Translations under genes and position numbers: made by a program | Shown: positions 44,705-63,879 of the stretch, in pieces | Layout: each line of letters starts with the position of its first letter | How positions within the stretch are numbered: position 1 is the first letter of the stretch | Notes under the pieces: model-generated | Seen by the model: the letters and a program-made list of their open reading frames with translations, nothing else | Database searches by the model: none | What the model was told of the DNA's origin: nothing | Origin: Pseudodesulfovibrio portus | GTDB taxonomy: Bacteria > Desulfobacterota > Desulfovibrionia > Desulfovibrionales > Desulfovibrionaceae | Length of the DNA stretch: 64,000 nt | Direction: 5' to 3' | NCBI RefSeq assembly: GCF_026000375.1 | Contig: NZ_AP026708.1 | Location: 2,330,001-2,394,000, forward strand

Positions 44705-45957
44705 CCCGACGCCCGCTGACCATCCTTTCCGTGGGCCATGCCGACAGTCCGCAGTATCGGGAGCGGACGGCGCGGTTCGTCGGCCTGGGGCACGACGTGG
44801 TGGAGCTGACCGGATCGAAAAGCGTGGTTTCGGGGGCGCGGGCGATCATCCCGCGCGGGGTGCCTGCAGGCAGGTGCTGGCGGCTCATCGGGCTGTCCCG
44901 GATCATCCATTGCCTGAAGACGGTGCGTGGCCTGTCGCCGGACCTGGTTTTCGTCCATTACGCCAAAGGGCTGTGGGGCTGGACGGCCCCGCTTTTCGGC
45001 GCGCCCGTGGCCGTCAGCGTCATGGGTGGCGACGTCCTGTTCGACGAGCAGGGGACGGCCAATGCGTGGAACCGGGCGGCCACGAAAGGGCTGCTGGAAA
45101 ACGCGGCCCTGGTCCTGTGCAAGTCCGACTACCTGGCGCAGCGGGTCAGGGCGCTCCCGGTGGCCGGACAGGTGGAGACCCATGCCTGGGGCATCGACAC
45201 CGACGTCTTTTCCATCGGTTCCGGCGAGGAATTCCGGCGTGAGCACGCCATTCCCGACGACTCCCCGGTGGTCTTCAGCCCCAGGGCCATGGAGCCGCTC
45301 TACAACACTCGACTGGTGGTCCGGGCGTTCGCCGCTTCCGGCATGGCCGGGGAGGGCGCGCGGCTCGTGCTGTCCACCTACAAGGCGGACGCCGCCTACC
45401 GGGCGGAGGTGGAGCGGGACTGCCTGGACGCGGGTCTCGGCGACAGCGTGATCTTTTTGCCGCCCCAGGACGACCGCGGCATGGCCGGGGCCTTCCGCGC
45501 GGCGGACGTGGTGGTGTCGGTCCCGTCCTCGGACGGGTTGCCACAGACGTTTTTCGAGAGCACGGCCTGCGGCGCCCCGCTGGTCATGGCCGACCTGCCC
45601 AACTACGGGCACTATTTTTCCCATGGCCGGGACGTCTGGCTCACACCTGCGGAGTCGTCCGCCGTGGCCCGGGGGATCGGGGCCGTCTGTCGCGATGCCG
45701 AGTTGCGCCGGTCCCTTGTCCGGGGCGCACGGGAAACCATGACCCGCCTGAGTCTCGGCGGCGGGGATCAGGTCCTCGACCAGCGGCTCGGTCAGGCGGC
45801 GCAGGGAGAGACGGCCTCCCTCGGCGCGAAGGTGCGTCAATCCGTGCGGGTGCTGGGCGCGCTCGTCACGGGAGAGGCCACGGCGCGCACCGGCCAGCCG
45901 GTCTGCCGGACCTTCGGCGAGTATTTCCGATCCCTTCATGCCAAGGCGGGGTGGTAG
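44701..45957 (+). CDS. GT-B glycosyltransferase (GT4-like)
   Basis: 418 residues, full length for GT4. VFVHYAKGLWGWTAPLFGAPVAVSVMGGDVLFD is the acceptor half; VPSSDGLPQTFFESTACGAPLVMADLPNYGHYF is the donor half with the EX7E-like glutamate. Extra basic residues lie at the C-terminus. The start overlaps the upstream stop (ATGA), and the asparagine-synthase-like gene begins two bases after its stop. Part of the glycan assembly operon. Confidence 0.87.
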   Translation: MTRRPLTILSVGHADSPQYRERTARFVGLGHDVVELTGSKSVVSGARAIIPRGVPAGRCWRLIGLSRIIHCLKTVRGLSPDLVFVHYAKGLWGWTAPLFGAPVAVSVMGGDVLFDEQGTANAWNRAATKGLLENAALVLCKSDYLAQRVRALPVAGQVETHAWGIDTDVFSIGSGEEFRREHAIPDDSPVVFSPRAMEPLYNTRLVVRAFAASGMAGEGARLVLSTYKADAAYRAEVERDCLDAGLGDSVIFLPPQDDRGMAGAFRAADVVVSVPSSDGLPQTFFESTACGAPLVMADLPNYGHYFSHGRDVWLTPAESSAVARGIGAVCRDAELRRSLVRGARETMTRLSLGGGDQVLDQRLGQAAQGETASLGAKVRQSVRVLGALVTGEATARTGQPVCRTFGEYFRSLHAKAGW

Positions 45958-45959
45958 CC

Positions 45960-47747
45960 ATGTGCGGCATTGCCGGATTCTGCCATCTCGACGCCGGGCG
46001 TCAGGCCGGGGTTTCCCTTGTCCGGACCATGAACGAGGCCATGCGCCATCGCGGGCCCGATGCCTCGGACACCTTCACGGACGGTCCGGTGGGGCTGGGC
46101 CATGGACGGCTCAAGATCCTCGACCTGAGCGATGCGGCCAACCAGCCCATGCGCGGCGCGTCCGGCAGCGTCATCGTCTACAACGGCGAGTGCTACAATT
46201 ATCTCGAACTCAAGCGCGAGCTGGAAGGGCTGGGCCATGTGTTCAGGACGACTTCCGACACCGAGGTCGTGCTGGCCATGTACGAGCAGTACGGGAAGAC
46301 GTTTGCGGGCAGGCTGCGGGGCATGTTTGCACTGGCCGTCTGGGACCCGCGCCGCAGGGAGCTGGTGCTGGTCAGGGACCGCATGGGCATCAAGCCCCTG
46401 TACTATTCCCTTGCGGATGAAACCGTGTCCTTTGCCTCGGAACTCAAGGGCATGCTCGCCCTGCCCTGGGTATCTCGGGACATCGATCTCGACGCCCTGG
46501 GCCGCTATTTCCGCCTTTACTCCATTCCGGACCCGCTATCCGTCATCAAGGACGTGCGCAGGCTGGCCCCCGGCCACATGCTCACGGTCCGGGACGGCAA
46601 GGTGCGTGAGGAGCAGTGGTGGACCCTGGCTGATGTTGAGACCGTTGATACGGACATGGAGACTGCGGCAGCCGGACTGCTGGAGGGGATCGAGGACGCC
46701 GTTGCCTCCCACCTCGTCTCGGATGTGCCCGTGGGCATCGCCCTGAGCGGCGGGATCGACTCGTCGGGCCTGGCCGCGCTGGCCGCGCGCAATGCGGGCG
46801 AGCCGCTGCACACCTTTTCCGTGGCCGTTCCGGGCTCCGAGCACGACGAGGGGGCCATGGCCGCCGAGTATGCCGAGGTCCTGGGAACGATTCACCATGA
46901 GATACAATTTTCAGACGTCACGCCCGGCCTGCTCGAGCGATTCGTTCGGTTCGCGGACGAGCCGTTCGCCATCAGCTCCGGCCTGGGACTGTTCCGGGTG
47001 GCCGAGGAGGCATCGCGCTGCGGTGTCAAGGTGCTGCTCACTGGCGACGGCGGCGACGAGCTTTTCGGAGGCTACCTTTGGCGGCACGGTGCGCCGGTGC
47101 CCGAGTCGAACCGGGCCGAGGCGTATGCCCGGTCCATGTGGCACAACGGCGACATGACGCTTGGGGAAATTCTTCTTCCCGGGGCCAAGGAGGCGCTCGG
47201 CGACGGCGGCCTTGCCCATCTGGCAATGCTCTACCGCCGCCCCGCCCTGGGCGACCCCCTGAAGCGGAGGCTGTACACGGATTCGTGCTCGACGCTGGTC
47301 AGCGAGATGCTGGCCAAGTCGGACCGCATGACCATGGCCCACGGCGTGGAGGGGCGCGTTCCGCTGCTCGACCATCATCTGGTGGAAAAGGCTTTTTCCC
47401 TGCCTTCGGCGGTCAAGCTCGTGGATGGTCAGGGCAAGGCGGTTTTGCGCAAGGCGTTGGCGACGGTCCTGCCGAGGTCCATCCTGGACCGCAGGAAGCG
47501 AGGCTTCAATGTGCCTGTGGCCAACACCTTCCGGGGGGAGACGCGGGAGTATGTCCTGGACGTCCTGTCGGATGCGGCCCGGGCGGAACGGGGATTATAC
47601 CGCCCGGAGGTGGTTCGGGAACGGTTTCTCGATCCCCTGGCGCGCGGCCACGAGTTTTCCCTTGAGGAGAGCCACCGGCTGTTCGCGATCCTGGCTTTGG
47701 AAATGTGGATGAGCCATGTGGCCGTTTTTTCTTGGCATGAATTGTGA
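45960..47747 (+). CDS. Asparagine-synthase-like glutamine amidotransferase (copy 1)
   Basis: 595 residues from ATG 45960, which places the nucleophile at Cys2 (MCGIAGFCHL). The class II glutaminase half has HRGPDASD and YNGECYNYLEL; the synthetase half has the PP-loop ALSGGIDSSGLAAL and GDGGDELFGGY. Classical AsnB makes asparagine, but copies embedded in polysaccharide loci are thought to amidate uronic acid carboxyls (WbpS-type). Context favours sugar amidation. Last gene of the operon that began with the epimerase; a 211 nt gap follows. Confidence 0.88.
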   Translation: MCGIAGFCHLDAGRQAGVSLVRTMNEAMRHRGPDASDTFTDGPVGLGHGRLKILDLSDAANQPMRGASGSVIVYNGECYNYLELKRELEGLGHVFRTTSDTEVVLAMYEQYGKTFAGRLRGMFALAVWDPRRRELVLVRDRMGIKPLYYSLADETVSFASELKGMLALPWVSRDIDLDALGRYFRLYSIPDPLSVIKDVRRLAPGHMLTVRDGKVREEQWWTLADVETVDTDMETAAAGLLEGIEDAVASHLVSDVPVGIALSGGIDSSGLAALAARNAGEPLHTFSVAVPGSEHDEGAMAAEYAEVLGTIHHEIQFSDVTPGLLERFVRFADEPFAISSGLGLFRVAEEASRCGVKVLLTGDGGDELFGGYLWRHGAPVPESNRAEAYARSMWHNGDMTLGEILLPGAKEALGDGGLAHLAMLYRRPALGDPLKRRLYTDSCSTLVSEMLAKSDRMTMAHGVEGRVPLLDHHLVEKAFSLPSAVKLVDGQGKAVLRKALATVLPRSILDRRKRGFNVPVANTFRGETREYVLDVLSDAARAERGLYRPEVVRERFLDPLARGHEFSLEESHRLFAILALEMWMSHVAVFSWHEL

Positions 47748-47958: not shown

Positions 47959-48633
47959 ATGATCAAAGGTGTTGTTGCCATAATCCCTGCCCGCGGAGGG
48001 TCCAAGGGTGTTTTTTGCAAAAACATCAAGGTGCTGTCCGGGAAACCGTTGATCGCCTGGACTGTTGAACAGGCCCTCGCAAGTTCCCGTATCGACAAGG
48101 TTATTGTTTCCACGGATGACGAGGATATCGCGGCGGTGGCACAGGATTACGGTGCAGAGGTTCCGTTTATCCGGCCCCGAAAGCTGTCCGGGGACTCCGT
48201 GCCCGTGGGCGACGTTGTTCCCCACGCGATAGATTTTCTGGAACAGGCGGGTGAATTCTACAAGGCGTGGCTGTGTCTTTTGCCGAGCCATCCCTTCCGC
48301 ACCCCGGACATGCTCGACAGCGCAGCCAAGGCGTTGGTGGACGATGGGTTCCGCTCCTTCGTGACCGTCCGCCCCATCGAGGTTTATCCCGGCCGCTTCC
48401 TGACCTCCCAGAACGGCGTTCTGCGTTCCGTGTTGTCCAAGGACGACGATGAGGCAACGGTCTATTACAGGAATTACGGCCTGGTCTTCGGCAAGTCGTT
48501 GAGCCGGGGGCTGGGGCCCAGCTACATGTATCCCGTGGTCGAAGAAGCGCATCTTGTCGATATAGATACTTTTGACGACTTTGCTCATGCCGAGCTCGTG
48601 CTCAAGGAAGGCAAATACGATTATGCTGCGTGA
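47959..48633 (+). CDS. Cytidylyltransferase of the acylneuraminate (NeuA/KdsB-like) family
   Basis: 224 residues from ATG 47959 with AAGGTG upstream; a GTG two codons earlier is possible. The nucleotide-binding loop is AIIPARGGSKGVFCKNI, with KPLIAWTVEQA and KVIVSTDDEDIAA following, all diagnostic. DTFDDFAHAELVL near the C-terminus is the conserved metal-binding segment. It couples CTP to a sugar acid, normally sialic, legionaminic or pseudaminic acid. No NeuB-type synthase is in this window. It leads a seven-gene block, overlapping the next gene by 11 nt. Confidence 0.9.
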   Translation: MIKGVVAIIPARGGSKGVFCKNIKVLSGKPLIAWTVEQALASSRIDKVIVSTDDEDIAAVAQDYGAEVPFIRPRKLSGDSVPVGDVVPHAIDFLEQAGEFYKAWLCLLPSHPFRTPDMLDSAAKALVDDGFRSFVTVRPIEVYPGRFLTSQNGVLRSVLSKDDDEATVYYRNYGLVFGKSLSRGLGPSYMYPVVEEAHLVDIDTFDDFAHAELVLKEGKYDYAA

Positions 48634-49882
48634 TACCGTACAAACGGCGACCTGCCTTATGCCGCTGCTCGGCGCTCACGGGGACCATCCCGGCCTGTCG
48701 GCGGAGCGCATCTCAGCTGCGGCCGGGGAGTTTCTCGACAAGAGCGGTTCCTGGTGGAACGGCACCGCCGTAATCGGCGTGGATGAGCAAGAGACATATG
48801 ACGCACTGATCGGCCTCGGACACAATGCCGTGTTGACGTCGGCAGGAAAGCGGGAAGACGGCGGATTGCCTCCGGGTTCAATGGCTCTTCTTGATGCGGT
48901 CGGGGAGATTCGTGGCCCCGTGGTCCTGGTGGATCTGTTCTCGCAGGGGGCGGACACCCTGCATGTCCTGAAGGCCTTGTCCCTGTTGCAGGAACACTCC
49001 GACGACGTGGTGGTGCCCATCCGGGAAGTCAGGGATCATCCCTGCCAGTTGAGCAGGTATTTTGTCCACCGTGGCGCCGGTTTCATGCATATCCTGGACA
49101 GGGACTACAGGGACCCCCACGGGTTGGTGGATGCGGGCGGCGTGGCCGGTCGCGCCTGCAAGCTCCCCCTTGAAGGGACACCGGGGCGGGGAACCGTTTG
49201 GGACGCCCGTTCCATTGTCGGGCCGCAGTTGGTTGAGCTGTCCCTGGAAGAGTTCCGGGAATCGTCCGACCGCATAGCGTGCGTCACCGACGGCAACGGC
49301 ATGTCGCGCCTCATCTTTCATGAAGCCTCTTTCGCGAAATCCGCCGGCGGTCACAGGGTGCTGGGGACCACGGCGTTCTCAATACATTCCCCGCGGCTGC
49401 ACCTCGCCGAATCCGGTCAGGGCATCCGGTTCGTCAGCGACGAGCCCGTCGGGGACGACTCCCGAGTCATCGGAATAATGAACGACGAAGGGCTTGAGAC
49501 CGTCATCCCCATGCAGCGCCTCACGGACGTTCCCATGGGGCGCTTCTGCGCCGGGGAGGGGTTTCCGTTCCTGATCCTGTCGGAGATTTCGCAGGGGGGG
49601 TATGACATCGCCATGCGTTTCCAAAGCGAAAGCTCCCTGTGGGTGATCCGCAACGGAATAGTCTACAACGGCTCAAGCGGGAAGCATATCACCGGGCGGT
49701 GGGATTTCCCCGACTGCAAAGAGGTCCAGGCGATTTTTGCCGCAGGGGAAGCGCACAATCTCCCGCGCTACCACGACCTCCTCAGGATGGGCCGGGTGCG
49801 GGGCATGGACCTCGACGCGGAGTCGCCCGCCGGGAAAACGTCGGCTGCAACCGTCACCAAGCGAATGTGGGCCGCGGGTTGA
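48623..49882 (+). CDS. Unrecognised protein, possible divergent nucleotidyltransferase
   Basis: 419 residues. The ATG at 48623 lies inside the end of the cytidylyltransferase gene, with AGGAAGG upstream. Residues ~40-150 include VIGVDEQETYDALIGLGHNAVLTS and VVLVDLFSQGADTLHVLKAL, then SDDVVVPIREVRDHPCQLS, which read like a degraded NeuA/KdsB core lacking the PARGGSKG loop. The C-terminal half is unrecognised and rich in beta strands. The coding overlap suggests close cooperation with the cytidylyltransferase. No function can be assigned. Confidence 0.65.
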   Translation: MLRDTVQTATCLMPLLGAHGDHPGLSAERISAAAGEFLDKSGSWWNGTAVIGVDEQETYDALIGLGHNAVLTSAGKREDGGLPPGSMALLDAVGEIRGPVVLVDLFSQGADTLHVLKALSLLQEHSDDVVVPIREVRDHPCQLSRYFVHRGAGFMHILDRDYRDPHGLVDAGGVAGRACKLPLEGTPGRGTVWDARSIVGPQLVELSLEEFRESSDRIACVTDGNGMSRLIFHEASFAKSAGGHRVLGTTAFSIHSPRLHLAESGQGIRFVSDEPVGDDSRVIGIMNDEGLETVIPMQRLTDVPMGRFCAGEGFPFLILSEISQGGYDIAMRFQSESSLWVIRNGIVYNGSSGKHITGRWDFPDCKEVQAIFAAGEAHNLPRYHDLLRMGRVRGMDLDAESPAGKTSAATVTKRMWAAG

Positions 49883-49891
49883 GGGGCGCCA

Positions 49892-50860
49892 ATGCATAAA
49901 ATGGAAAGAATCGATATCAACAAGAGCTCTTCCGTGTTGAGCACCATCGCGTCCTCCTGCTGCAGTGTGGGAGTCCAGAGCGTGCTGGGGGATTTTTTGT
50001 CCAAGTTTGTGAACGAGGCGGGGCAAGCCACTGCATTGCCGTTCGCCATTCAGGATCGGATTGTTCTTCCCCGGGGCGAAAAAATACACAGGGCCTGCGC
50101 GGGTATTCACGGCGAGGTGTGCTGCATCTCAAACGTCAACAGCAACAAGCTGTTGGTTTGCGCCGACGGCAGGAATTGGGAAACCGTCTACCAGGCCGAT
50201 GACATCATCCCTCGGATAGCACACGACGGCGAGCATTATTATTTGCCGCTCTTCAACAAGCGGATCATCGACGTCCTGGATTCAACCTTCAGGCGCGTGT
50301 CGACGATTGACCTTGCGGGCGAACCGGCCCTGGCGACCCTTTCCACGATTTGCAACGCCTCCTGCGACAAGCAGGGGAGGCTCGTGTGTTCGGGGACCGG
50401 CGATAAAGGCATTATCCATTTTTTGATAGACCGACCGAGCCATGATTATTCCGTAGTCTTGCTGGGAAAGAATATCGTCATCCGCAATGGAGACTGCATG
50501 GCAACGGATTCGAGTTATCTGCTCATTGCCCACAATCGTATTGTGGTCATTGACGGCAACTCCGATGCAGGCCGGATGCAGATCGTCAATTCGGTCCCGG
50601 TCCCGGCAAAATTCCTCACCATATTACCTTGGAAGGACCGTTATCTGGTGCCATTGATTTCCGGGGAAATCGTCTTGTACGACCTGGGTCTTTCCCTGGT
50701 CGGGCACAGTGATTTTCTTCAGAGGAACGGCATCGACGATATCGGGCTGATTCCCCTGATGGTCGATGGGGGTCGTTCCGATTCGGCGCTGCTCTACGGC
50801 CTTCAGGGAAATGATATTTACACGGTGCAATTGAACTCCAACAAAGGGGAATCAAGATGA
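49892..50860 (+). CDS. Unrecognised beta-rich protein, possibly propeller-like
   Basis: 322 residues with no family recognised. Repeated short units such as LLVCADGRNWETVYQADD, LVCSGTGDKGIIHFLID and LLIAHNRIVVIDGNSD suggest repeated beta blades rather than an enzyme fold. No signal peptide or membrane helix is seen. GAGGGG precedes the ATG, which lies 9 nt after the previous stop; its own stop overlaps the radical SAM start (ATGA). Co-transcription ties it to that enzyme, perhaps as a partner. Base composition is visibly less GC-rich than upstream genes. Confidence 0.65.
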   Translation: MHKMERIDINKSSSVLSTIASSCCSVGVQSVLGDFLSKFVNEAGQATALPFAIQDRIVLPRGEKIHRACAGIHGEVCCISNVNSNKLLVCADGRNWETVYQADDIIPRIAHDGEHYYLPLFNKRIIDVLDSTFRRVSTIDLAGEPALATLSTICNASCDKQGRLVCSGTGDKGIIHFLIDRPSHDYSVVLLGKNIVIRNGDCMATDSSYLLIAHNRIVVIDGNSDAGRMQIVNSVPVPAKFLTILPWKDRYLVPLISGEIVLYDLGLSLVGHSDFLQRNGIDDIGLIPLMVDGGRSDSALLYGLQGNDIYTVQLNSNKGESR

Positions 50861-52452
50861 AGCGACTCAATGTATTGTTTGTCAATCCTAAGCAATGGGC
50901 GGACGCCAAGGTGAATCCGGAAAAGGCGCTTTATCCGTACAGCATTGTTTACATAGTCAATTTCTTGAAAAAGAATGACCTGTGCGATGTGGACTACATC
51001 GACCTGACCATGGAGGATGAGTCCGTCTACTTCGAGAGGATCAAAAATGAACATTATGATCTGATCGGCATAACCGCCCTGACCACCGGGCGGCTGCATG
51101 CAATCCATGTGGTCAAGGAGACCAGGAAGGCTTCCCCGAATTCCAAGATCATCGTCGGCGGGCCCTTCTTCGGGAACAAGCCGATAGAGACCTTACACAA
51201 TGTCCCCGAGGTGGATTATGTCTGCGTCGGCGAAGGAGAACACACCTCGGCCGAGCTGGTCCAGCATCTGCAGACGGGCACTCCCGCCCTGCACGACATC
51301 AATGGGCTGCTGTATTGGGAGGACGGTGAAATCCGGAAGAACGCCAGCCGCAAGTATGAAAAGAACCTGGACCTGTTCGACATCCAGGAGGACTTGATCT
51401 CCAAGCCCCACTATAAGTACCTGCATCCGCTGAAAGGGTGGGAAGACGACCCGGACAAGGGGAACGCCTACATCATCATGGCCGGGCGGGGGTGCATCAA
51501 CGGGTGTATTTACTGCCTGAACAGCAGAAAGCCGTTCCGCCACCACTCGGTGGATTATCTGATCAACAAAGTCAAAGAGATTAAGAAAAAATACAATACA
51601 AGGCACATGTTCTTCGGTGACCCCTCATTTGCATCCAGCTCGAGCTACCTGCAGGAGTTCTGCGAAAGGATCATTGAAGAGAAACTCGACATCGAATGGT
51701 ATTGCGAAGGCCGACCGGACATTCCGCTCGATTTGCTCGAGCTCATGGCAAAGGCCGGGTGCATCAGCTACGACTTCGCCATGGAGACCGGCTCCGAAAG
51801 GGTCATGAAGAAGCTTCGTCGGCGGACCGACCTGGATATGATCGTCAACTTTGCGAAGAAGCTCAATGAACTGGGCGTTCGCGGTGATTTCTTCACCATG
51901 ATGTCGATGCCGGATGAAAGGGGGAAAGACCTTTTCAAGACCATCACCTACATTGCCAAGCTGAACAGGCTCGGGTTCAAGACCACTCTCGCTCCGTTCT
52001 TTATCGTTCCGGGTACCAAGCTGGAAGAGATCGCCATAGAAAGAGGGCAGCTGGCCAAGGATTTCTCCTGGTTTGATGAGACCTACTCATGCGATCATCA
52101 CCACATCCATGAAGCGAAAAAGCACATTCCCCACTATCTTGAATACTTCGATTCCTACGACTTGAAGAAATTGGCCGGGTTCCATCTGGCCATGCAGGAT
52201 TTCATCACCAGGGAGCCCCGGGTCAGAAAGCTGAGGTATTCCTTCCTGGGCACCATCTCCCACGTCACCCGCTTCTTCCTGAAGGAAGCCGAGTGGAACG
52301 ACTTCAAGTATGTTTTCGACGTGTTGTCGCTGTCGGCAAAGATGTACACCTGGTTCTGGCTCTGGAAGCTGAGAAAGCCCTACTATGACTACCTGGAAAG
52401 AAAGAACTCGGTGGTCGAGCCGGTTGCCGAAGCGTGCTGCGAGCATGAATAA
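50857..52452 (+). CDS. B12-binding-type radical SAM protein (copy 1)
   Basis: 531 residues. The N-terminal half has a cobalamin-binding-like Rossmann fold (VLFVNPKQW, DLIGITALTTGR, KIIVGGPFF, DYVCVGEGEHT). The iron-sulfur motif CxxxCxxC is at Cys213, Cys217 and Cys220 (GRGCINGCIYC), and YDFAMETGSERVMKKLRR is the conserved radical SAM segment. Such enzymes use cobalamin and SAM to methylate unactivated carbons or rearrange skeletons. Starts with a 4-bp overlap on the upstream gene. Codons are AT-richer than in neighbouring sugar genes. Confidence 0.9.
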   Translation: MKRLNVLFVNPKQWADAKVNPEKALYPYSIVYIVNFLKKNDLCDVDYIDLTMEDESVYFERIKNEHYDLIGITALTTGRLHAIHVVKETRKASPNSKIIVGGPFFGNKPIETLHNVPEVDYVCVGEGEHTSAELVQHLQTGTPALHDINGLLYWEDGEIRKNASRKYEKNLDLFDIQEDLISKPHYKYLHPLKGWEDDPDKGNAYIIMAGRGCINGCIYCLNSRKPFRHHSVDYLINKVKEIKKKYNTRHMFFGDPSFASSSSYLQEFCERIIEEKLDIEWYCEGRPDIPLDLLELMAKAGCISYDFAMETGSERVMKKLRRRTDLDMIVNFAKKLNELGVRGDFFTMMSMPDERGKDLFKTITYIAKLNRLGFKTTLAPFFIVPGTKLEEIAIERGQLAKDFSWFDETYSCDHHHIHEAKKHIPHYLEYFDSYDLKKLAGFHLAMQDFITREPRVRKLRYSFLGTISHVTRFFLKEAEWNDFKYVFDVLSLSAKMYTWFWLWKLRKPYYDYLERKNSVVEPVAEACCEHE

Positions 52453-52487
52453 CTACAAAGCTGAATGGTGATAGGAGGTATGGTCTC

Positions 52488-53951
52488 ATGAGTAAAAAGG
52501 TAATTGTCGTTGATGCCGGCAGGCGTAAATTCTTCCCTGCCGACTCCCTCTATACGATCAGCTCCGTCAAGGATCAGGTCGATATGGACCAGGTCTCCAT
52601 TTATCGCCTTTTCGAAGCGGGTGATCTTGCGCTCATACTGGACGAACTCGGCAGCGTCGGCGACGATGAAGCTGTCCTGTTCCTGTGGGTTTATGAAAAG
52701 TTCTACCCGGTTGAAATGCAGAGCATGCTGCAGGAGCTGATCGATACGGCGAACAGCATGGCCAAGGTGACGATAGCCATGGGCGGCATTCATCCCACCC
52801 TGGCCAGGGATCTTCTTCTGGGGGACACCCGGATCGACTACGTCATCGCCGGATGGCCCTGGTCGGCGTCCTCCGAGTGGCTGGACGGGGGGAAGCAATC
52901 CACCCCGAAGCTGCTGGTCGCGGCAAAGGACGGTGGACTGCCCGATCACCTCAAGCTGAAGGACGCTTTTTCGAGGATAAAAAACATCAAGAGCTGCGTC
53001 ATGACCACCGCGACCGGGGAAATCTATTTCAACTACCGGTCCACATACATGTGCAAAAATGGTTGCGCGTTTTGCCACGCGACGCATTTTCTCAAGCACT
53101 TTGGCGGCTTGATTGAAAAAAGTGACGAGCGCATTCAGGAGGAGCTGCTTTTCCTGAAGGACGCCATCGGCACGGACAAGGTCTACCTTTCGAGCTACGT
53201 CTGCGACAAGAGAACCATTGACAGTCTCAACAGGGCCGGGATGAAGGTCGAAAACCAGTACAGCCTCATGGTCAAGGACATTACCCCGGAATTGCTCGAC
53301 ATGTTCAAGGGCCTTGGCGCGGAGTGCGTGTTCATCGGCCTGGAGAATCTGCAGACCCCGGTCCAGAAGCGTGTGGGCAAGCACTTCGAAATCGATCATT
53401 TTGAGAAAGCGCTCAGGGACGGCGACGCCATAGGCATGATGTTCGAAGGCAACATCATGGTCGGCCTGAATTCGATTCTCGGCCAGCCGTCCACATCCGA
53501 AGACATCGTCAGGGACATCCGTTCGGTCATTCCCCAGTACAGAAGGTACAGGAATCTGCGGGTGCTGTTGCGGCCGTTCATGCCGTTTGTCGGCACCCCG
53601 CTCGGCGACAAGCTGTGGGAGAATACCGGGAGACTGGATAATGTCGGTTACTGGGACTATATCAAGCTCGGCTTCTCGGTTGCCCGGGGGCACGGAGTTC
53701 CGGAAGGCCTGCCCATCCCCCCCGCGTATGCCGACCTGGAAGCGTTCGAAACGATCAAAACCTACTACAAATCCTTCGAGCAGTTGGTGCGGCACAGGAC
53801 GAGCCTGTACAAATACCCCCCCAAGAACAAGGACAAGGCCGTCTTGTGCGACAGGATATCCGATCTGTGCTTTGACATCCTGGAAACGGGCAATGTCGAT
53901 TTCGGGGATTTCCTGGAAGACGCCCTTGATGCCATGTCGCGTTGGAAATAG
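52488..53951 (+). CDS. B12-binding-type radical SAM protein (copy 2)
   Basis: 487 residues. A cobalamin-binding-like N-terminus (VTIAMGGIHPTLARD, DYVIAGWP) is followed by the cluster motif at Cys189, Cys193 and Cys196 (MCKNGCAFC) and by CVFIGLENLQTPVQKRVGK. It is only distantly similar to copy 1, so the two probably do different chemistry. AGGAGG lies 9 nt upstream of the ATG. A 117 nt gap separates it from the next gene. Confidence 0.88.
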   Translation: MSKKVIVVDAGRRKFFPADSLYTISSVKDQVDMDQVSIYRLFEAGDLALILDELGSVGDDEAVLFLWVYEKFYPVEMQSMLQELIDTANSMAKVTIAMGGIHPTLARDLLLGDTRIDYVIAGWPWSASSEWLDGGKQSTPKLLVAAKDGGLPDHLKLKDAFSRIKNIKSCVMTTATGEIYFNYRSTYMCKNGCAFCHATHFLKHFGGLIEKSDERIQEELLFLKDAIGTDKVYLSSYVCDKRTIDSLNRAGMKVENQYSLMVKDITPELLDMFKGLGAECVFIGLENLQTPVQKRVGKHFEIDHFEKALRDGDAIGMMFEGNIMVGLNSILGQPSTSEDIVRDIRSVIPQYRRYRNLRVLLRPFMPFVGTPLGDKLWENTGRLDNVGYWDYIKLGFSVARGHGVPEGLPIPPAYADLEAFETIKTYYKSFEQLVRHRTSLYKYPPKNKDKAVLCDRISDLCFDILETGNVDFGDFLEDALDAMSRWK

Positions 53952-54068
53952 CCGTTTTTGAGGATGGCCGGGTGAGGCGCCTTCTCTCTCGTGTGGGGAG
54001 AGGAGAGCGTCGGGCCCGGCTGTTTTTGAGAAGCCCGGTCGGGATGACTTTTTAACCAGGAGTTGGTG

Positions 54069-55217
54069 ATGGGCCTCCGAATACATGAAGTGCGGACCGT
54101 TCTGGATATATGCAAAGGCAGAGACATATCCGGCGGCATGACGGTGACCTTTGGGACGCAGACGATTCAGGCTTCGTATTCTGAGTTGGCCGTGGCTTTT
54201 TTTGAAAAAGGCCTGCTGCCCGCGCCCGTATCCGAAGAGGAAATGGAGTTGCTCTCGCAGGGAAGGCCGTTGAGCGCTCCGCTTGAGGGCAACATATTCC
54301 TGAAGATGATGGGAGCGGGGGAAATCGTCAACCTGGATGTGCTGCCGCACTCTCCGTTCGCGTATATTCACGACCTGGGGAAACCGATCCCGGAAGAACT
54401 CAAGGGCAAGGCCCGCTTCGTGTTCGACGGCACGACCGGCTACCATGTGATGGACAGGTGTACGGCCCTGTGCAACGCGGCCAACCTGCTGCAGGTCGGC
54501 GGGATTCTGATACACACGTTTACCATGAACCCCCTCTCCCCGACATTCAATTCCTTCAACCCGCAACTGTTGTTGCGGTTTTATGAAACCAACGGGTTCG
54601 GCAATTTCCAGCTGCATGCGGCCGACAGGGGGCACACGAACTCCGTTTACAAGGCGTGCGGCGACCTGCACCACTCCACGTACCTTCCCGACCTGACGCG
54701 GTATGTGTATATCTTTTCCGCCACCAAGGAAGAGGACGTGCCCGTGACCACGGACAGTCTGGAATGGCAGTACGAGCTGCACAGATGTGCCGGGAGTGAA
54801 GAGTCCGTTGATCCGGCGCGACTCGCAGGCAAGACCGTCGCCATATGGGGGACGGGCGGAAACTATGCAGACAATTACGCCGGATTGCCGGCTTCAAAGG
54901 ATGCCGGTTTCGATTTTTGGGGATTTGTCGACGGAGACAGCGGCAAATGGGGGAGCGAGGTCGACGGCCATGTCGTGCGGGACCCGGCCTCCCTTCGTCA
55001 TGCCGATGTCGATGTTGTCGTCATTGCAAGCTGGGCCCGGGAGGAGATTTTCGACGCACTGAGTTCCATCCTGCAGTCCAAGCCGGAAGTCCTGGCCAAC
55101 ACCTACGGGCTGTACCGGGGCTTTTTCGAACGGAAAAAACTAATCAAGACACTCCAAATGAGCAGGCTGTCGAACTCGGTCATCGAGCCGCACACACTGA
55201 AAGGGCTTGCGGGGTAG
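54069..55217 (+). CDS. Methyltransferase-like / Rossmann-fold fusion protein
   Basis: 382 residues. Residues ~80-230 read like a class I methyltransferase (GAGEIVNLDVLPHSPFAYIHDLG, then ALCNAANLLQVGGILIHTF), although the SAM glycine motif is weak. Residues ~253-345 are a separate nucleotide-binding-like domain starting GKTVAIWGTGGNYADNY and continuing FWGFVDGDSGKWG, similar to a fold used in sugar-modifying proteins. AGGAG fixes ATG 54069. Follows the two radical SAM genes and precedes a sulfotransferase-like gene. Specific function unknown. Confidence 0.68.
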   Translation: MGLRIHEVRTVLDICKGRDISGGMTVTFGTQTIQASYSELAVAFFEKGLLPAPVSEEEMELLSQGRPLSAPLEGNIFLKMMGAGEIVNLDVLPHSPFAYIHDLGKPIPEELKGKARFVFDGTTGYHVMDRCTALCNAANLLQVGGILIHTFTMNPLSPTFNSFNPQLLLRFYETNGFGNFQLHAADRGHTNSVYKACGDLHHSTYLPDLTRYVYIFSATKEEDVPVTTDSLEWQYELHRCAGSEESVDPARLAGKTVAIWGTGGNYADNYAGLPASKDAGFDFWGFVDGDSGKWGSEVDGHVVRDPASLRHADVDVVVIASWAREEIFDALSSILQSKPEVLANTYGLYRGFFERKKLIKTLQMSRLSNSVIEPHTLKGLAG

Positions 55218-55271
55218 CCGGTGTGACGAGATCCTCAGCAGTGTTCCGTCCCGTTTGGATCGGAGGAATGA

Positions 55272-56216
55272 ATGGGAAAGCATAACGACGGCGCCTTGTT
55301 CGAATCCTTGAAACTGATGAACGAGTCCCTGTCCGCAGTGCAGGAGAGGCTCTATGCCAAGGACGCGGACAAGGGCATTCCCCAGATATTCATCGTCGGG
55401 CCGCCCCGCTCCGGCAAGGTCCTGACCAACAGCATCCTGTGCCATTGCCTCGACATCGGCTACATCAACAACATCGTGAACAGATTCTGGCACGCTCCCC
55501 TGTTCGGCATATACCTGTCGAACGACGTGCTGCCGAAGGGCCGCGACATGTCGTTCTCGTCGCGGTACGGCATGACCCCGGAGGTGTGGGGGCCCGGGGA
55601 GTACCCGTATTTCTGGTTCAGGTGGTTCGGCGGCTATGACGACCCGATCCCCGAGGACCGGATCGACTGGGAAGGTCTGTGCGGCCTTCTCAACCAGATG
55701 GGGCATGCGTTCGGGCGTCCGATCGTGCATCAGTCACTGGCGGCGTTCAACCATCTGAGGGGCATGGCCCGCCGATTGGAAAACACGTTGTTCATCCGGC
55801 TTCACAGAAACCCCGTGGACAACGCCTTGTCGATTCTGAAGATGCGCAAGGACTACCATGGAGATCGGGAAAAGTGGCACAGCGTCCGCCCGTCGAATTA
55901 CGAGCAGGTCAAGGGCCGGGGCTGGGCCGGGCAGATTGCGGGACAGTTGCACGGCATCCGCACCGACCTCGACAGCCAGTTGGCGGGGCTTGAGGTCATT
56001 GATGTGGCCTATCCCGACGTGTGTGCCCGACCGGGAGACCTGGTCGACGCGGTATCGCAGTGGCTGCGCCACAGGGGATATCCGGTCGGCTCGCTGCAAC
56101 CGGCTCCCGAGCCGTTCACTCCGTCCGTGTACCCCGACACCGAGGACAGGAGGCGGATACTGAGCCGCCTCGGGGAATTCTTCCCCGGCCTGGAGGATGA
56201 CCAGGGACGGGACTGA
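55272..56216 (+). CDS. Sulfotransferase-family protein (copy 1)
   Basis: 314 residues. The 5'-phosphosulfate-binding loop is FIVGPPRSGKVLTNS near residue 40, and RLHRNPVDNALSI is the 3'-phosphate-binding region of PAPS-dependent sulfotransferases. The conserved RSGTT is altered to RSGKV, so activity is not certain. GGAGG lies 5 nt before the ATG. Probably sulfates a glycan or lipid carrier; acceptor unknown. Last gene of the plus-strand block; a convergent operon begins 6 nt further on. Confidence 0.78.
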   Translation: MGKHNDGALFESLKLMNESLSAVQERLYAKDADKGIPQIFIVGPPRSGKVLTNSILCHCLDIGYINNIVNRFWHAPLFGIYLSNDVLPKGRDMSFSSRYGMTPEVWGPGEYPYFWFRWFGGYDDPIPEDRIDWEGLCGLLNQMGHAFGRPIVHQSLAAFNHLRGMARRLENTLFIRLHRNPVDNALSILKMRKDYHGDREKWHSVRPSNYEQVKGRGWAGQIAGQLHGIRTDLDSQLAGLEVIDVAYPDVCARPGDLVDAVSQWLRHRGYPVGSLQPAPEPFTPSVYPDTEDRRRILSRLGEFFPGLEDDQGRD

Positions 56217-56222
56217 GCAGGG

Positions 56223-57776
56223 CTATTGCTCCCCGACAACGCGGAAGAGCGCCACGTGGTCGTTTTCCAGGATCGTTTCCAATTGATCCCGGAAGGCGGC
56301 CTTGTCTTTGGTGAGCCCCAGGTACATGTCGAAGGCCCACTTCTCCGTCAGGATGTAATCCGGCCTGAAGCGTCGGCGCACTTCGGAGAAGTCTTCCGTG
56401 GGAAGCGGCAGGTGCGCCTTGAGCGCCCTGAAGTCCTCTTCGGGCATCAACTCGTATTCCTTCTCTTCACGCAGCCCTATGACCGGTTTGTTTCCCCAGA
56501 GCAGGGCGTGGTATCCCGTGTAGCCAAGGGGGAGCACCAGGCCTTCAGGTTCGTTGTTGAGCGCTGTCACGCCTTCCTTGATCTTGAGGACCTTGTCCTG
56601 GCTTGCGGACAGAAGGTGCGGCACCCTGAAAAGGCAGATGACGGTCATGGCCATGGAATAGGCCACCAGTGCCCAGAGTATGACGGGATGGTTGTGCAGG
56701 GCCATCACCGCCATGACCGTGATCGGGTACATGATGTGCTCCAGGTATCGCTCTCCCTCGCCGAGAAACATGGCGAACCGCATTTTGGTTATGACGCAGG
56801 CGGCGACGCCGCCGACAAACGCGCCGAACAGGAATCCGCCATCCGGTTTGCCCAGTGCTTCCGTGGGGGCGAAAAAGGCGAACAGCAACGGGGTGAAGCA
56901 GACCACTACGAGATGGACGGGGTATTGTTCATCCAGGCACCAGAAGAGGAATCCCTTGAGGTTCTTTGCACGGATCTTGGGCAGCCCGTGATTTTTCCAT
57001 GAAGTGATGTAGTCCGCGAACTTCCGCGGGCCGAAGCCGGTGAACACGTGCTGATAGAACTTGTGATACCAGATGGAGTGCCAGATCTGGCCCCTGATGA
57101 CGAGCAGGGGGTGCTTGCGGAAAAGCGCTACGGAAAGCGCGATGCTCCCGGCCATGAAAAGCAGGTACAGGGGCGTGCAGAACCAGGCCAGGGCAATGGA
57201 GATGAAGGCCAGGGTCTGGTTGCCGAATTTCGAGGTGATGATCAGCAGGGCTCCGGCCAGCATGGACCCCGCCCCCGCCAGGTATGAACCGGATGTGACG
57301 GCGATCTGAAAGAGGGCGATATGCGCCAGGTAAATGAATTCCCCCATGACTCTCGGCGTGCCCGCAAAGGATCGCGGTCCCGACCCGATTCGGACGAGGG
57401 CGGGCGAGAAGGCGAACAGGAGGGCCGTGATCAGGGGCGCGTGGTCAGGGAAAAGCGTCGGGTTGGAGGCGCTCATCCATGCGGTCATGTGGTAGACGAT
57501 GAGCGTCGACAGGGCGTCGAAAAAGGCTGATGAGCCCATTTCCAGGCGATACATCCATTGTTCGGGGACCCGTGCGAGCAGGGCGTGATATGCGTACGGG
57601 TACATGAAGGGATACGGACGGTTGCGCAGGGCCGTGTCCAGGAACCGCCCGTTGTTTTTCTTGATTCTTTTTGTGTAATCGAGATGGCACAGCGTGTCGT
57701 AGCTCAGCGCCATCGGATATGTTCTGCGAATCTGGATTTTGACGAGAAAGAAAAGAATGAGGATTAGATATATCAT
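56223..57776 (-). CDS. Polytopic membrane protein, GT-C glycosyltransferase-like
   Basis: 517 residues with about ten hydrophobic segments in residues 1-390 and a soluble C-terminal domain. The start of the first periplasmic loop, YPMALSYDTLCHLDYTKRI, carries an acidic site similar in position to that of GT-C enzymes, which use polyprenyl-phosphate sugars. The soluble tail is typical of such proteins. Not a confident family match. It is the last gene of the minus-strand operon starting at 60541. Confidence 0.62.
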   Translation of the reverse strand: MIYLILILFFLVKIQIRRTYPMALSYDTLCHLDYTKRIKKNNGRFLDTALRNRPYPFMYPYAYHALLARVPEQWMYRLEMGSSAFFDALSTLIVYHMTAWMSASNPTLFPDHAPLITALLFAFSPALVRIGSGPRSFAGTPRVMGEFIYLAHIALFQIAVTSGSYLAGAGSMLAGALLIITSKFGNQTLAFISIALAWFCTPLYLLFMAGSIALSVALFRKHPLLVIRGQIWHSIWYHKFYQHVFTGFGPRKFADYITSWKNHGLPKIRAKNLKGFLFWCLDEQYPVHLVVVCFTPLLFAFFAPTEALGKPDGGFLFGAFVGGVAACVITKMRFAMFLGEGERYLEHIMYPITVMAVMALHNHPVILWALVAYSMAMTVICLFRVPHLLSASQDKVLKIKEGVTALNNEPEGLVLPLGYTGYHALLWGNKPVIGLREEKEYELMPEEDFRALKAHLPLPTEDFSEVRRRFRPDYILTEKWAFDMYLGLTKDKAAFRDQLETILENDHVALFRVVGEQ

Positions 57777-61868: not shown

Positions 61869-62013
61869 CTGGATTGACCCTCCGGGAGGAGCCGATGGCA
61901 TACATTGTGCTTGTTTTTCCTGAGGGACATTTTTGATCGTTTAATAATTAAATGCCGAATCGGCGTTGAAGGGGCGGGCATCGCCTCCGAAAAAAGGAAG
62001 GGCTGGGCGAAAA

Positions 62014-63879
62014 ATGTGTGGCATCTGCGGGATACTGTCCCATACGGGCATTTCCCCGACGAGACAATCGCTTGAACCCATGATGGACGCCCTGGCGCAT
62101 CGAGGGCCGGACGGGGCAGGTCATTATATTGACGGTCCCATCGGTTTTGGGCATCGCCGCCTGGCCATTCTCGACCTGTCGGACGCCGGGGCCCAGCCCA
62201 TGGTGAGCGCGGACCGTTCCCATGTGATCTCCTACAACGGCGAGGTCTACAATTTCCGCGAGTTGCGCCGGGAGCTGCAGGCCGAGGGCCATGCCTTCCG
62301 TTCAGCCTCGGACACCGAGGTGGTCCTGGCGGCGTACGCGGCCTGGGGGCCGGCTTGCGTCGAGCGGTTCAACGGCATGTTTGCCCTGGCCATCTGGGAT
62401 ACCCGCAGGCAGCGTCTGTTTCTCGCCAGGGACCGATACGGCATCAAGCCGTTGTACTACTGCACCGCCAGGGATTGTTTTGCCTTCGCCTCGGAGCAAA
62501 AGGCCTTTTTGTCTATGCCCGGTTTCGAGCGCAGCCTGGATTCCGAGGCCATGCTCGAATATTTCACCTTTCAGAATCTGTTCACGGACAGGACCTTTTT
62601 CAAGCGGGTGAAGCTCTTTCCCGCAGGCTGCCGCGGGTTTGTCTCCGCCGGGGGAACGTTGTCCGTCGAGCGTTACTGGGACTACGATTTTCAAGAGCCT
62701 GACACTCCCCTGAGCGAGGAGGAGTACATAGAGGAGTTGGACTACCTGTTCAGCCGGGCCGTGAAAAGACAGATGGTCAGCGACGTGGAGGTCTCCGCCT
62801 ATTTGAGCGGGGGTATTGATTCGGGGGCGATAACCGCCTTTGCAGCGCAGGAGATTCCCTACATCAAGAGTTTTACCTGCGGGTTCGACATGCACTCGGC
62901 CACGGGCCTGGAGGTCGCTTTTGACGAGCGGGAAAAGGCGGAGCACCTGTCCTACCTGTTGAAGACCGAACACTACGAGATGGTCCTCAAGTCGGGGGAT
63001 ATGGAGCGTGCTCTCCCTTCCATCGCCTGGCACATGGAAGAACCCCGTGTCGGGCAAAGCTATCCGAACTACTACGCAGCGTCCCTGGCGAGCCGGTTTT
63101 GCAAGGTCGTGCTGGCCGGGACCGGCGGGGACGAGCTGTTCGGCGGCTATCCGTGGCGCTACTATCGCGCGGTCAACAACGGTTCCTTCGATGACTATAT
63201 CGACAAGTACTACGTCTTCTGGCAGCGCCTGATCCCCAACCGTCAGATCAAGCGGGTTCTTTCGCCGATATGGGACGAGGTCGAACATGTCTGGACCCGG
63301 GACATCTTCGGCGACGTGTTTTCCGACAAGCAGCGCCGTCTGGGGCAGCCCAGGGATTTCATCAACCACTCCCTGTACTTTGAGGCCAAGACGTTCCTGC
63401 ATGGCCTGCTGATCGTCGAAGACAAGCTCTCCATGGCGCATGGGCTCGAGACCAGGGTGCCGTTTCTCGATAACGACCTGGTCGATTTCGCCATGCGGTT
63501 GCCGGTGAGCATGAAGCTCGGCAACCTGGACGAGGTCGTCAGGATCAACGAGAACGAGGCGGGCAAGCTCAAGAAGTACTATCAGAAGACCAGGGACGGG
63601 AAGCTTCTGTTCAGGAAGACTCTTGCCCCTTACGTGCCCGAGACTGTCAGCGACGGCATCAAGCAGGGCTTTTCGGGGCCGGATGCGTCGTGGTTCAAAG
63701 GGGAAAGCATCCGCTATGTCCGGGAGACTCTTTTCAGTCGGCAGGCACTCATTTTTGATTATCTGGACAAGCGAGCCGTACAGGAGCTTGTCATGGAGCA
63801 CCTGGAGGGGAAGGCCAACCGGCGCCTTTTCATCTGGTCCCTGTTGTTGGTTGAGGAATGGTTGAAACACTATGCATGA
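62014..63879 (+). CDS. Asparagine-synthase-like glutamine amidotransferase (copy 2)
   Basis: 621 residues from ATG 62014, fixed by AAGGAAGGG upstream and by Cys2 (MCGICGILSH). Glutaminase features are HRGPDGAGHY and YNGEVYNF; synthetase features are YLSGGIDSGAIT and GTGGDELFGGY. It is longer than copy 1 and differs in the synthetase core, so it probably serves a different acceptor. Amidation of a uronic acid sugar is the context-based suggestion. A pyruvate-kinase-like gene starts 15 nt downstream. Confidence 0.88.
   Translation: MCGICGILSHTGISPTRQSLEPMMDALAHRGPDGAGHYIDGPIGFGHRRLAILDLSDAGAQPMVSADRSHVISYNGEVYNFRELRRELQAEGHAFRSASDTEVVLAAYAAWGPACVERFNGMFALAIWDTRRQRLFLARDRYGIKPLYYCTARDCFAFASEQKAFLSMPGFERSLDSEAMLEYFTFQNLFTDRTFFKRVKLFPAGCRGFVSAGGTLSVERYWDYDFQEPDTPLSEEEYIEELDYLFSRAVKRQMVSDVEVSAYLSGGIDSGAITAFAAQEIPYIKSFTCGFDMHSATGLEVAFDEREKAEHLSYLLKTEHYEMVLKSGDMERALPSIAWHMEEPRVGQSYPNYYAASLASRFCKVVLAGTGGDELFGGYPWRYYRAVNNGSFDDYIDKYYVFWQRLIPNRQIKRVLSPIWDEVEHVWTRDIFGDVFSDKQRRLGQPRDFINHSLYFEAKTFLHGLLIVEDKLSMAHGLETRVPFLDNDLVDFAMRLPVSMKLGNLDEVVRINENEAGKLKKYYQKTRDGKLLFRKTLAPYVPETVSDGIKQGFSGPDASWFKGESIRYVRETLFSRQALIFDYLDKRAVQELVMEHLEGKANRRLFIWSLLLVEEWLKHYA

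Follow-up and report, generated by a model that had tools for sequence, protein, structure and literature searches.

A CMP-sugar synthetase paired with a degenerate homologue in a variable surface-glycan island of Pseudodesulfovibrio portus

Introduction

The synthetases that form cytidine monophosphate (CMP)-sugars determine which sialic-acid-like sugars reach the bacterial surface. Known CMP-nonulosonate synthetases (NeuA, LegF and PseF; PDB entries 1eyr, 6ifd and 9ftb/9ftc) are homo-oligomers that carry all of their motifs in one chain. Non-catalytic paralogous subunits are found among the sugar-nucleotide pyrophosphorylases, namely the large subunit of ADP-glucose pyrophosphorylase and the GMPPA/GMPPB system. 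The locus described here lies in a 64-kb stretch of the Pseudodesulfovibrio portus genome (the window, bases 2330001–2394000 of 3.40 Mb in one contig) and comprises seven same-strand open reading frames (ORFs), p1 to p7, of which p1 encodes a CMP-sugar synthetase and p2 a degenerate homologue of such enzymes. At the core of the block, set in a variable glycan island, p1 and p2 are read here, with moderate confidence, as the two subunits of a CMP-nonulosonate synthetase, p2 being a pseudoenzyme. The original prediction, drawn from the window, had proposed instead a single new pathway, comprising the whole block, for an unusual and possibly branched or carbon-methylated sugar acid. In the titles and abstract openings listed from the open-licence literature, neither a pseudo-subunit of a CMP-sugar synthetase nor a radical S-adenosylmethionine (SAM) enzyme acting on a nonulosonate is described.

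Results and Discussion

p1 is a synthetase and p2 its degenerate homologue

p1 matches the Pfam family CTP_transf_3 with an E-value of 2.7e-21 (76.8 bits against a curated cut-off of 22.6) and, like the known CMP-nonulosonate synthetases, displays the cytidine triphosphate (CTP) loop ARGGSKG and the metal motif DIDxxxD. Its best NCBIfam match is PseF (TIGR03584) at 138 bits, under the equivalog cut-off of 205.7. The PseF encoded elsewhere in the same genome scores 297.3 bits with this model, and a further, stronger CTP_transf_3 protein (194.9 bits) is presumed to be KdsB. The RQ..P/Q..P..Y block, which we take to be a sugar contact in known synthetases, is absent from the p1 of the window, where it would precede the YxxNG segment.

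The original prediction listed p2 as unrecognised and no Pfam or NCBIfam model matches it, yet p2 is recognisable by profile, motif and fold. A profile built from 31 p2 sequences finds genuine CMP-sugar synthetases in several phyla, at E-values down to 1e-17, the alignment consisting of two blocks on either side of an insert of ~200 residues. hhalign matches p2 to the alignment of p1 proteins (E 1.4e-5, probability 80%), and the p2 of one relative matches Pfam NTP_transf_3 at 3.2e-5, slightly under the cut-off. The AlphaFold model of p2 (predicted local distance difference test (pLDDT) 78.9, predicted template-modelling score (pTM) 0.73) has CMP-Kdo and CMP-NeuAc synthetases as its top Foldseek matches (KdsB 1vh3 and 3duv, E 1.7e-6); p1 scores far under the cut-offs of the NCBIfam KdsB models. 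Similarly, VIA with the p2 model gives Z scores of 12–14 to IspD, KdsB and the CMP-pseudaminate synthetase 9ftc over 151–207 aligned residues, and its matches include GT-A glycosyltransferases such as mannosylglycerate synthase (Z 11.4). Alignments of 14 and of 31 p2 proteins retain the blocks DHPCQ and GRQxFP; the p2 of the window has DHPCQ and reads GRWDFP where its relatives mostly have GRQxFP. On the profile, motif and AlphaFold/Foldseek evidence p2 is thus a degenerate member of the NeuA/KdsB fold, a CMP-sugar synthetase that has lost the CTP loop and the metal motif and gained a beta-rich insert.

The motifs were counted by pattern in 29 gene-called pair loci (a set without L065, L068 and L074) and in a control of 83 other synthetase ORFs. 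The CTP loop is found in 28 of the 29 paired p1 proteins and in 82 of the 83 controls, and the two-aspartate metal motif DIDxxxD in 29/29 and 57/83, respectively, while both patterns are absent from the p2 of the window and from all 29 of its relatives. The RQ..P block occurs in 27 of the 29 p2 proteins. In paired p1 the pattern Q..[PAS]..[YF] is present in 4/29, as against 57/83 of the other synthetases, among which it is not universal either. Compared with the known one-chain enzymes, the system therefore differs in its second chain, p2, which lacks the catalytic motifs, and in the loss of the Q..P..Y block from most paired p1. These counts bear on an obligate heteromer whose chains would have decayed in a complementary manner, p1 providing the CTP/metal half and p2 the sugar-side half with a sensor-like insert, so that activation would be achieved by the pair alone and the sugar would be remodelled in this strain by the radical SAM enzymes. 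As a whole this proposal is regarded as rather doubtful.

p1 and p2 are neighbours across related genomes

Matches to p2 at E<=0.01 occur in at least 24 of 297 genomes of the class, that of P. portus among them. Loci from 13 of the others, mostly the best-scoring ones, were retrieved first and two (G028, G174) later. A p1 homologue lies beside p2 in 13/13 of the first loci; the two genes are divergent in L065 and p1 runs off the contig in L068. A possible start codon gives a 4-nt overlap of p1 and p2 in six of the 13; in the window the two genes overlap by 11 nt, with the ATG of p2 at 48623. Among 199 genomes of the family, the p2 profile has a match in at least 69 at E<=1e-4 and in at least 44 at E<=1e-8. 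Both these and the p1 numbers are lower bounds, since part of the initial candidates was scored in the search. The 44 genomes are taken as the p2 set; the weaker matches were not counted, as they probably represent genuine synthetases or chance similarity (8 of ten such places retrieved matched the p1 model). In at least 39 of the 44 genomes a p1 match, among the p1-profile matches listed, lies no more than 600 bp from p2 and on its strand. This adjacency and the short overlaps at several loci suggest co-translation, and the retention of the pair in many related bacteria is a hint that p1 and p2 work together.

The pair is also present in Desulfofustis glycolicus DSM 9705 (Desulfocapsaceae), where the p1 loop reads ARGGSR and the p2 motif GRQQFP. 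A scan of a wider collection of genome contigs places p2 beside p1 in 3 of the best 80 loci (L109, L131 and L116, the last being Desulfofustis); only these 80 were kept, and the distribution given for other families is not exhaustive. A gene that follows a synthetase in Helicobacter (L168) was considered as a p2 and rejected, as it reads as an oxidoreductase.

In five of the 29 loci p2 is extended by ~420 further residues. The long C-termini of L083, L087 and L088 are akin to stand-alone third genes of other loci, and no link to such genes was found for those of L091 and L094. These extensions, the length of the insert and beta-rich part, and the GT-A glycosyltransferases among the VIA matches would suit a p2 that is a separate enzyme on a NeuA scaffold (a transferase or hydrolase using the CMP-sugar, or a sensor) and acts after p1, the two genes being held together by operon logic. 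The profile and Foldseek ranks, in contrast, favour CMP-Kdo and CMP-NeuAc synthetases, the canonical metal motif is lost throughout the 29 loci, and the adjacency with its overlaps suggests joint translation; a separate enzyme is accordingly judged fairly unlikely.

Paired p1 proteins form one clade

In a tree of 123 synthetases all 31 paired p1 proteins, that of Desulfofustis included, group in a single clade that contains no other tip of the remaining 92, and the genome's own PseF falls outside it. Adding 15 stretches from further family members gives a clade of 42 with a support of 0.975, in which 37 members are directly paired and five are not (G134, G023, G069, G171 and G072). Four of the added synthetases (G185, G108, G156, G151) lie outside the clade and have no p2 nearby. 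The distances within p1 and p2 correlate in a mirror-tree comparison of 29 pairs (r=0.71, reached in 0 of 2000 permutations; L092, with a split p2 call, was left aside).

The tree also bears on the possibility that p1 is a second PseF, duplicating that of the pseudaminic-acid locus, and p2 a decaying, pseudogene-like relic. PseF is indeed the best NCBIfam match of p1 and the genome has a pseudaminic-acid locus with its own PseF. However, p1 remains far under the cut-off of that model and the PseF of the genome is excluded from the paired clade. In addition, the blocks kept across 31 aligned p2 proteins and the presence of p2 in at least 44 genomes make it hardly a relic. A duplicated PseF with a relic is therefore very unlikely.

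At the place expected for p2, the p1-clade synthetases of three genomes are followed by a protein of 658–706 residues (L207 4122–6098, L208 4100–6112 and L209 4114–6234). Those of L207 and L208 have no Pfam match, and the protein may be another type of partner for synthetases of this clade.

An orphan NeuB locus accompanies the pair

As the original prediction had it, the window contains no NeuB-type synthase; the genome encodes two. One, PseI, belongs to a pseudaminic-acid locus and adjoins PseC, PseF and PseG, which all exceed their cut-offs, PseB (by reading) and a PseH-like part that does not reach its cut-off. The other is an orphan, located with a winged-helix/Rossmann (helix-turn-helix (HTH)-Rossmann) regulator at 2477494–2479214 (L017 9495–11215), ~84 kb beyond the window end and ~100 kb from p1. 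A reading of 20 kb around this orphan locus shows no evident glycan cluster.

The orphan-locus regulator is found in 80 of the 199 family genomes (82 matches, from which G129 and G151 were dropped because just the Rossmann part matched), including all 44 genomes with p2 (Fisher p 2e-22, ignoring phylogeny). NeuB adjoins the regulator in 20 of 20 retrieved loci, 16 of them in p2 genomes. In Desulfofustis the elements stand in one row, the regulator and NeuB being followed, after one further gene, by p1 and p2. This NeuB (L116 7006–8898) is a NeuB-SAF synthase joined in one chain to a TIM barrel resembling xylose isomerase, a fusion that may hint at the chemistry of the precursor. The presence of the regulator in all p2 genomes, the NeuB beside it and the Desulfofustis gene row make the orphan NeuB the preferred source of the substrate of the pair, which is probably a nonulosonate. 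The proposal of a CMP-activated sugar acid whose synthase lies at another locus thus gains support.

A two-subunit synthetase is favoured

In the favoured two-subunit arrangement, the orphan synthase would make the substrate, p1 would bind CTP and metal and carry out the chemistry, and p2, of the same fold and deprived of the CTP loop and metal aspartates, would be its non-catalytic partner. p2 might then donate the sugar site, act as a specificity or regulatory subunit, or serve as an adaptor to a third protein, while p4 to p7 would modify the activated sugar or its neighbours. ADP-glucose pyrophosphorylase and GMPPA/GMPPB provide a working analogy, as each joins a catalytic nucleotidyltransferase to a disabled paralogue; these belong to other nucleotidyltransferase families and no membership is claimed.

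Several observations weigh against this arrangement. In five of the 44 genomes p2 does not have p1 next to it. In G134 the genes are 3.9 kb apart with transposase-like genes between them, in G182 they are ~3 kb apart in a different order, in G071 they lie on opposite strands at 1.2 kb, in G023 they are on different contigs, and in G014 no p1 is present among the matches listed. Within the p1 clade, G171 and G072 carry after p1 a different protein of 670–706 residues without a p2 match, and G069 an ORF whose p2 match is weak and ambiguous. No fusion of p1 and p2 was noticed. The p2 of the window has a tryptophan in place of the glutamine of the GRQ motif, which weakens a direct role in sugar binding in this strain, and the Foldseek TM-scores are modest (0.22–0.26 by query and at most 0.44 by target among the rows listed). 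The mirror-tree and co-occurrence tests ignore phylogeny, and some of the genomes compared had also gone into the profiles. Furthermore, the NeuB-linked regulator also occurs in 36 genomes that have no p2, and the orphan NeuB locus can thus serve without the pair; pseudaminate and other sugar acids are possible substrates. The analysis shows the homology and fold of p2, its loss of motifs, the pairing, the p1 clade and the co-occurrence with the NeuB locus; from these we infer the physical complex of p1 and p2 and its substrate, and likewise the role of p4 to p7, the radical SAM chemistry included.

The seven-gene block and its accessory genes

The block extends over 47953/47959–56216 by ORF reading of the window (Table 1), its genes being joined by overlaps or short gaps (4 nt of overlap between p3 and p4). 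This layout, headed by a NeuA-like cytidylyltransferase, agrees with the original prediction, whose labels for p5 and p6 need qualification.

Table 1. Genes of the p1–p7 block, with positions in the window.
Gene	Assignment	Position	Strand	Basis
p1	CMP-sugar synthetase, NeuA/PseF-like, presumed catalytic subunit	47959–48633	+	Pfam, motifs, p1 tree
p2	Degenerate CMP-sugar synthetase homologue (pseudo-subunit), beta-rich insert of ~200 residues	48623–49882	+	Profile, fold, motif loss
p3	Unrecognised, beta-rich by reading	49892–50860	+	Without Pfam match
p4	B12-binding-domain radical SAM protein	50857–52452	+	Pfam B12-binding and Radical_SAM
p5	Radical SAM protein, divergent; B12-binding domain uncertain	52488–53951	+	Radical_SAM barely over cut-off
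p6	Methyltransferase-like N-terminal half and Rossmann domain	54069–55217	+	Weak BLAST relatives, ORF reading
p7	Sulfotransferase family protein	55272–56216	+	Sulfotransfer_3

p3 has no Pfam match and its single-sequence structure model (pLDDT 35.7) is uninformative. Relatives often have, as their third gene, a weakly beta-propeller-like protein, with NHL, SGL and Vgb_lyase labels all below cut-offs. BLAST, phmmer and hhalign comparisons showed no homology between it and p3, the likeness being one of position only.

Two B12-type radical SAM enzymes had been proposed. For p4 this is borne out, with the B12-binding (4e-18) and Radical_SAM (9e-18) domains both above the Pfam cut-offs and a CxxxCxxC motif read in the translation. 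p4 shares this two-domain architecture with HpnJ, BchE, the ladderane-type enzymes and AprD4. The first three are its closest curated NCBIfam models, HpnJ being the best, and p4 scores far under the cut-offs of all of them; AprD4 is its best solved relative (PDB 6fd2, 1.1e-13). p5 also carries CxxxCxxC in its translation; its Radical_SAM match is borderline (7.7e-7, 29.9 bits against a cut-off of 29.5) and its B12-binding match of 21.2 bits is below the cut-off of 32.1. Besides p5 itself, the 199 family genomes hold weak matches alone (best 3.5e-6), and the best match in 395 genomes of the phylum is at 1.9e-10 with 28% identity. The two best phylum matches sit in lipid/acyl carrier protein (ACP)-type clusters by reading. 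No relatives of p5 were found in plasmids, nor by pattern in a collection of genome contigs.

No Pfam family matches p6 at E<=0.05, and its proposed identity as a methyltransferase/Rossmann fusion comes from distant BLAST relatives and a reading of their ORFs; its C-terminal part matches the HTH-Rossmann protein linked to the orphan NeuB (E 1.3e-5). The sulfotransferase-like character of p7 is upheld by a Sulfotransfer_3 match (E 2.9e-8) that, at 34.7 bits, exceeds the cut-off of 27.

Relatives of p3 to p7 were sought by BLAST in the stretches retrieved for the 29 pair loci (up to ~10 kb on each side). p4-like proteins occur in seven of the loci at E<=1e-6, all at most 24% identical and five spanning both domains, with weaker matches in L064 and L070. 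At E<=1e-3, p3 and p5 have no relatives in any of the 29, p7 has one in a single locus, and the Rossmann part of p6 alone is matched in two. As these loci lack p5 and hold distant p4 relatives at most, p4 to p7 look accessory, local add-ons to a variable glycan island.

The original prediction combined the genes into one dedicated pathway. In such a pathway p4 and p5 would modify the carbon skeleton of the sugar acid, p6 would methylate it, p1 would activate it and p7 would sulfate it. The common strand and tight spacing are consistent with such a pathway, as are the terminator-like sites, which at 7 against a shuffle mean of 7.9 are not above expectation, the p4-like proteins near the pair in other loci, and an island that also holds an adenosine phosphosulfate (APS) kinase and, besides p7, one clear and one sub-cut-off sulfotransferase-like gene. 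Conservation of the block as a unit was nevertheless rejected: in the stretches retrieved for the 29 gene-called pair loci, relatives retain the cytidylyltransferase with p2 and lack most of the other genes, an arrangement that the original prediction had itself named as speaking against a single pathway. The GC content differs among the genes (57% in p1, 63% in p2, 52–56% in p3 to p5 and 62% in p7), which is compatible with separate acquisition, though without a clean step, and p5 has no close relative in the sets searched. A single seven-gene pathway is consequently unlikely.

The fosfomycin pathway combines a cytidylyltransferase with a B12 radical SAM enzyme. A phosphonate pathway of the fosfomycin/phosphinothricin type was rejected for this locus, since no phosphoenolpyruvate (PEP) mutase (PF13714, E<=0.001) was found in the genome.

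The surrounding glycan island

The seven ORFs lie within a large surface-glycan island that runs from ~36.7 kb in the window to ~12.6 kb past its end. By reading, it encodes NAD-sugar epimerases, a DegT-type aminotransferase and glycosyltransferases, and it also carries a WbmS-like deacetylase in addition to the sulfotransferase-family and APS kinase genes. In two genomes of the same genus (G198, G622) the pair resides in an island that shares its downstream flank with that of the window, namely radical SAM, amidohydrolase and pyrB/pyrC-like genes (by reading), and that carries other cargo.

Four asparagine-synthase-like proteins are encoded in the island, two in the window (45951–47747 and 61966–63879, by model matches) and two in the adjoining stretch L015 (2531–4315 and 10420–12198, by clustering). 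Also inside the island, a pyruvate-kinase-barrel protein is directly followed by an APS-kinase-like protein (L015 935–2451, genome 2393934–2395450); the two might provide 3'-phosphoadenosine 5'-phosphosulfate (PAPS), or some other activated phosphate, with which glycans are decorated. At window 56223–57776, on the minus strand, lies a 517-residue protein without Pfam match that is polytopic by reading and shows weak kinship (24%) with the gene upstream of p1 in locus L071. An MptE-like protein (PF01973, a family that presumably takes in the Maf flagellin glycosyltransferases) is encoded near the island at window 33011–34786. Downstream of the island, ~12 kb (L016 3111–15391) contain no gene according to a codon-usage gene caller and are possibly foreign DNA.

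Significance

Because the radical SAM genes look like separable add-ons, a seven-step pathway is not to be drawn from gene order alone. The object of interest is smaller and more general than the seven-gene block, consisting of a synthetase and a pseudo-synthetase around which different strains hang different modification genes, and p1 and p2 provide a defined two-gene object for biochemistry. If the two-subunit reading is true, the pseudo-synthetase family would represent a new level at which CMP-sugar activation is controlled or made specific.

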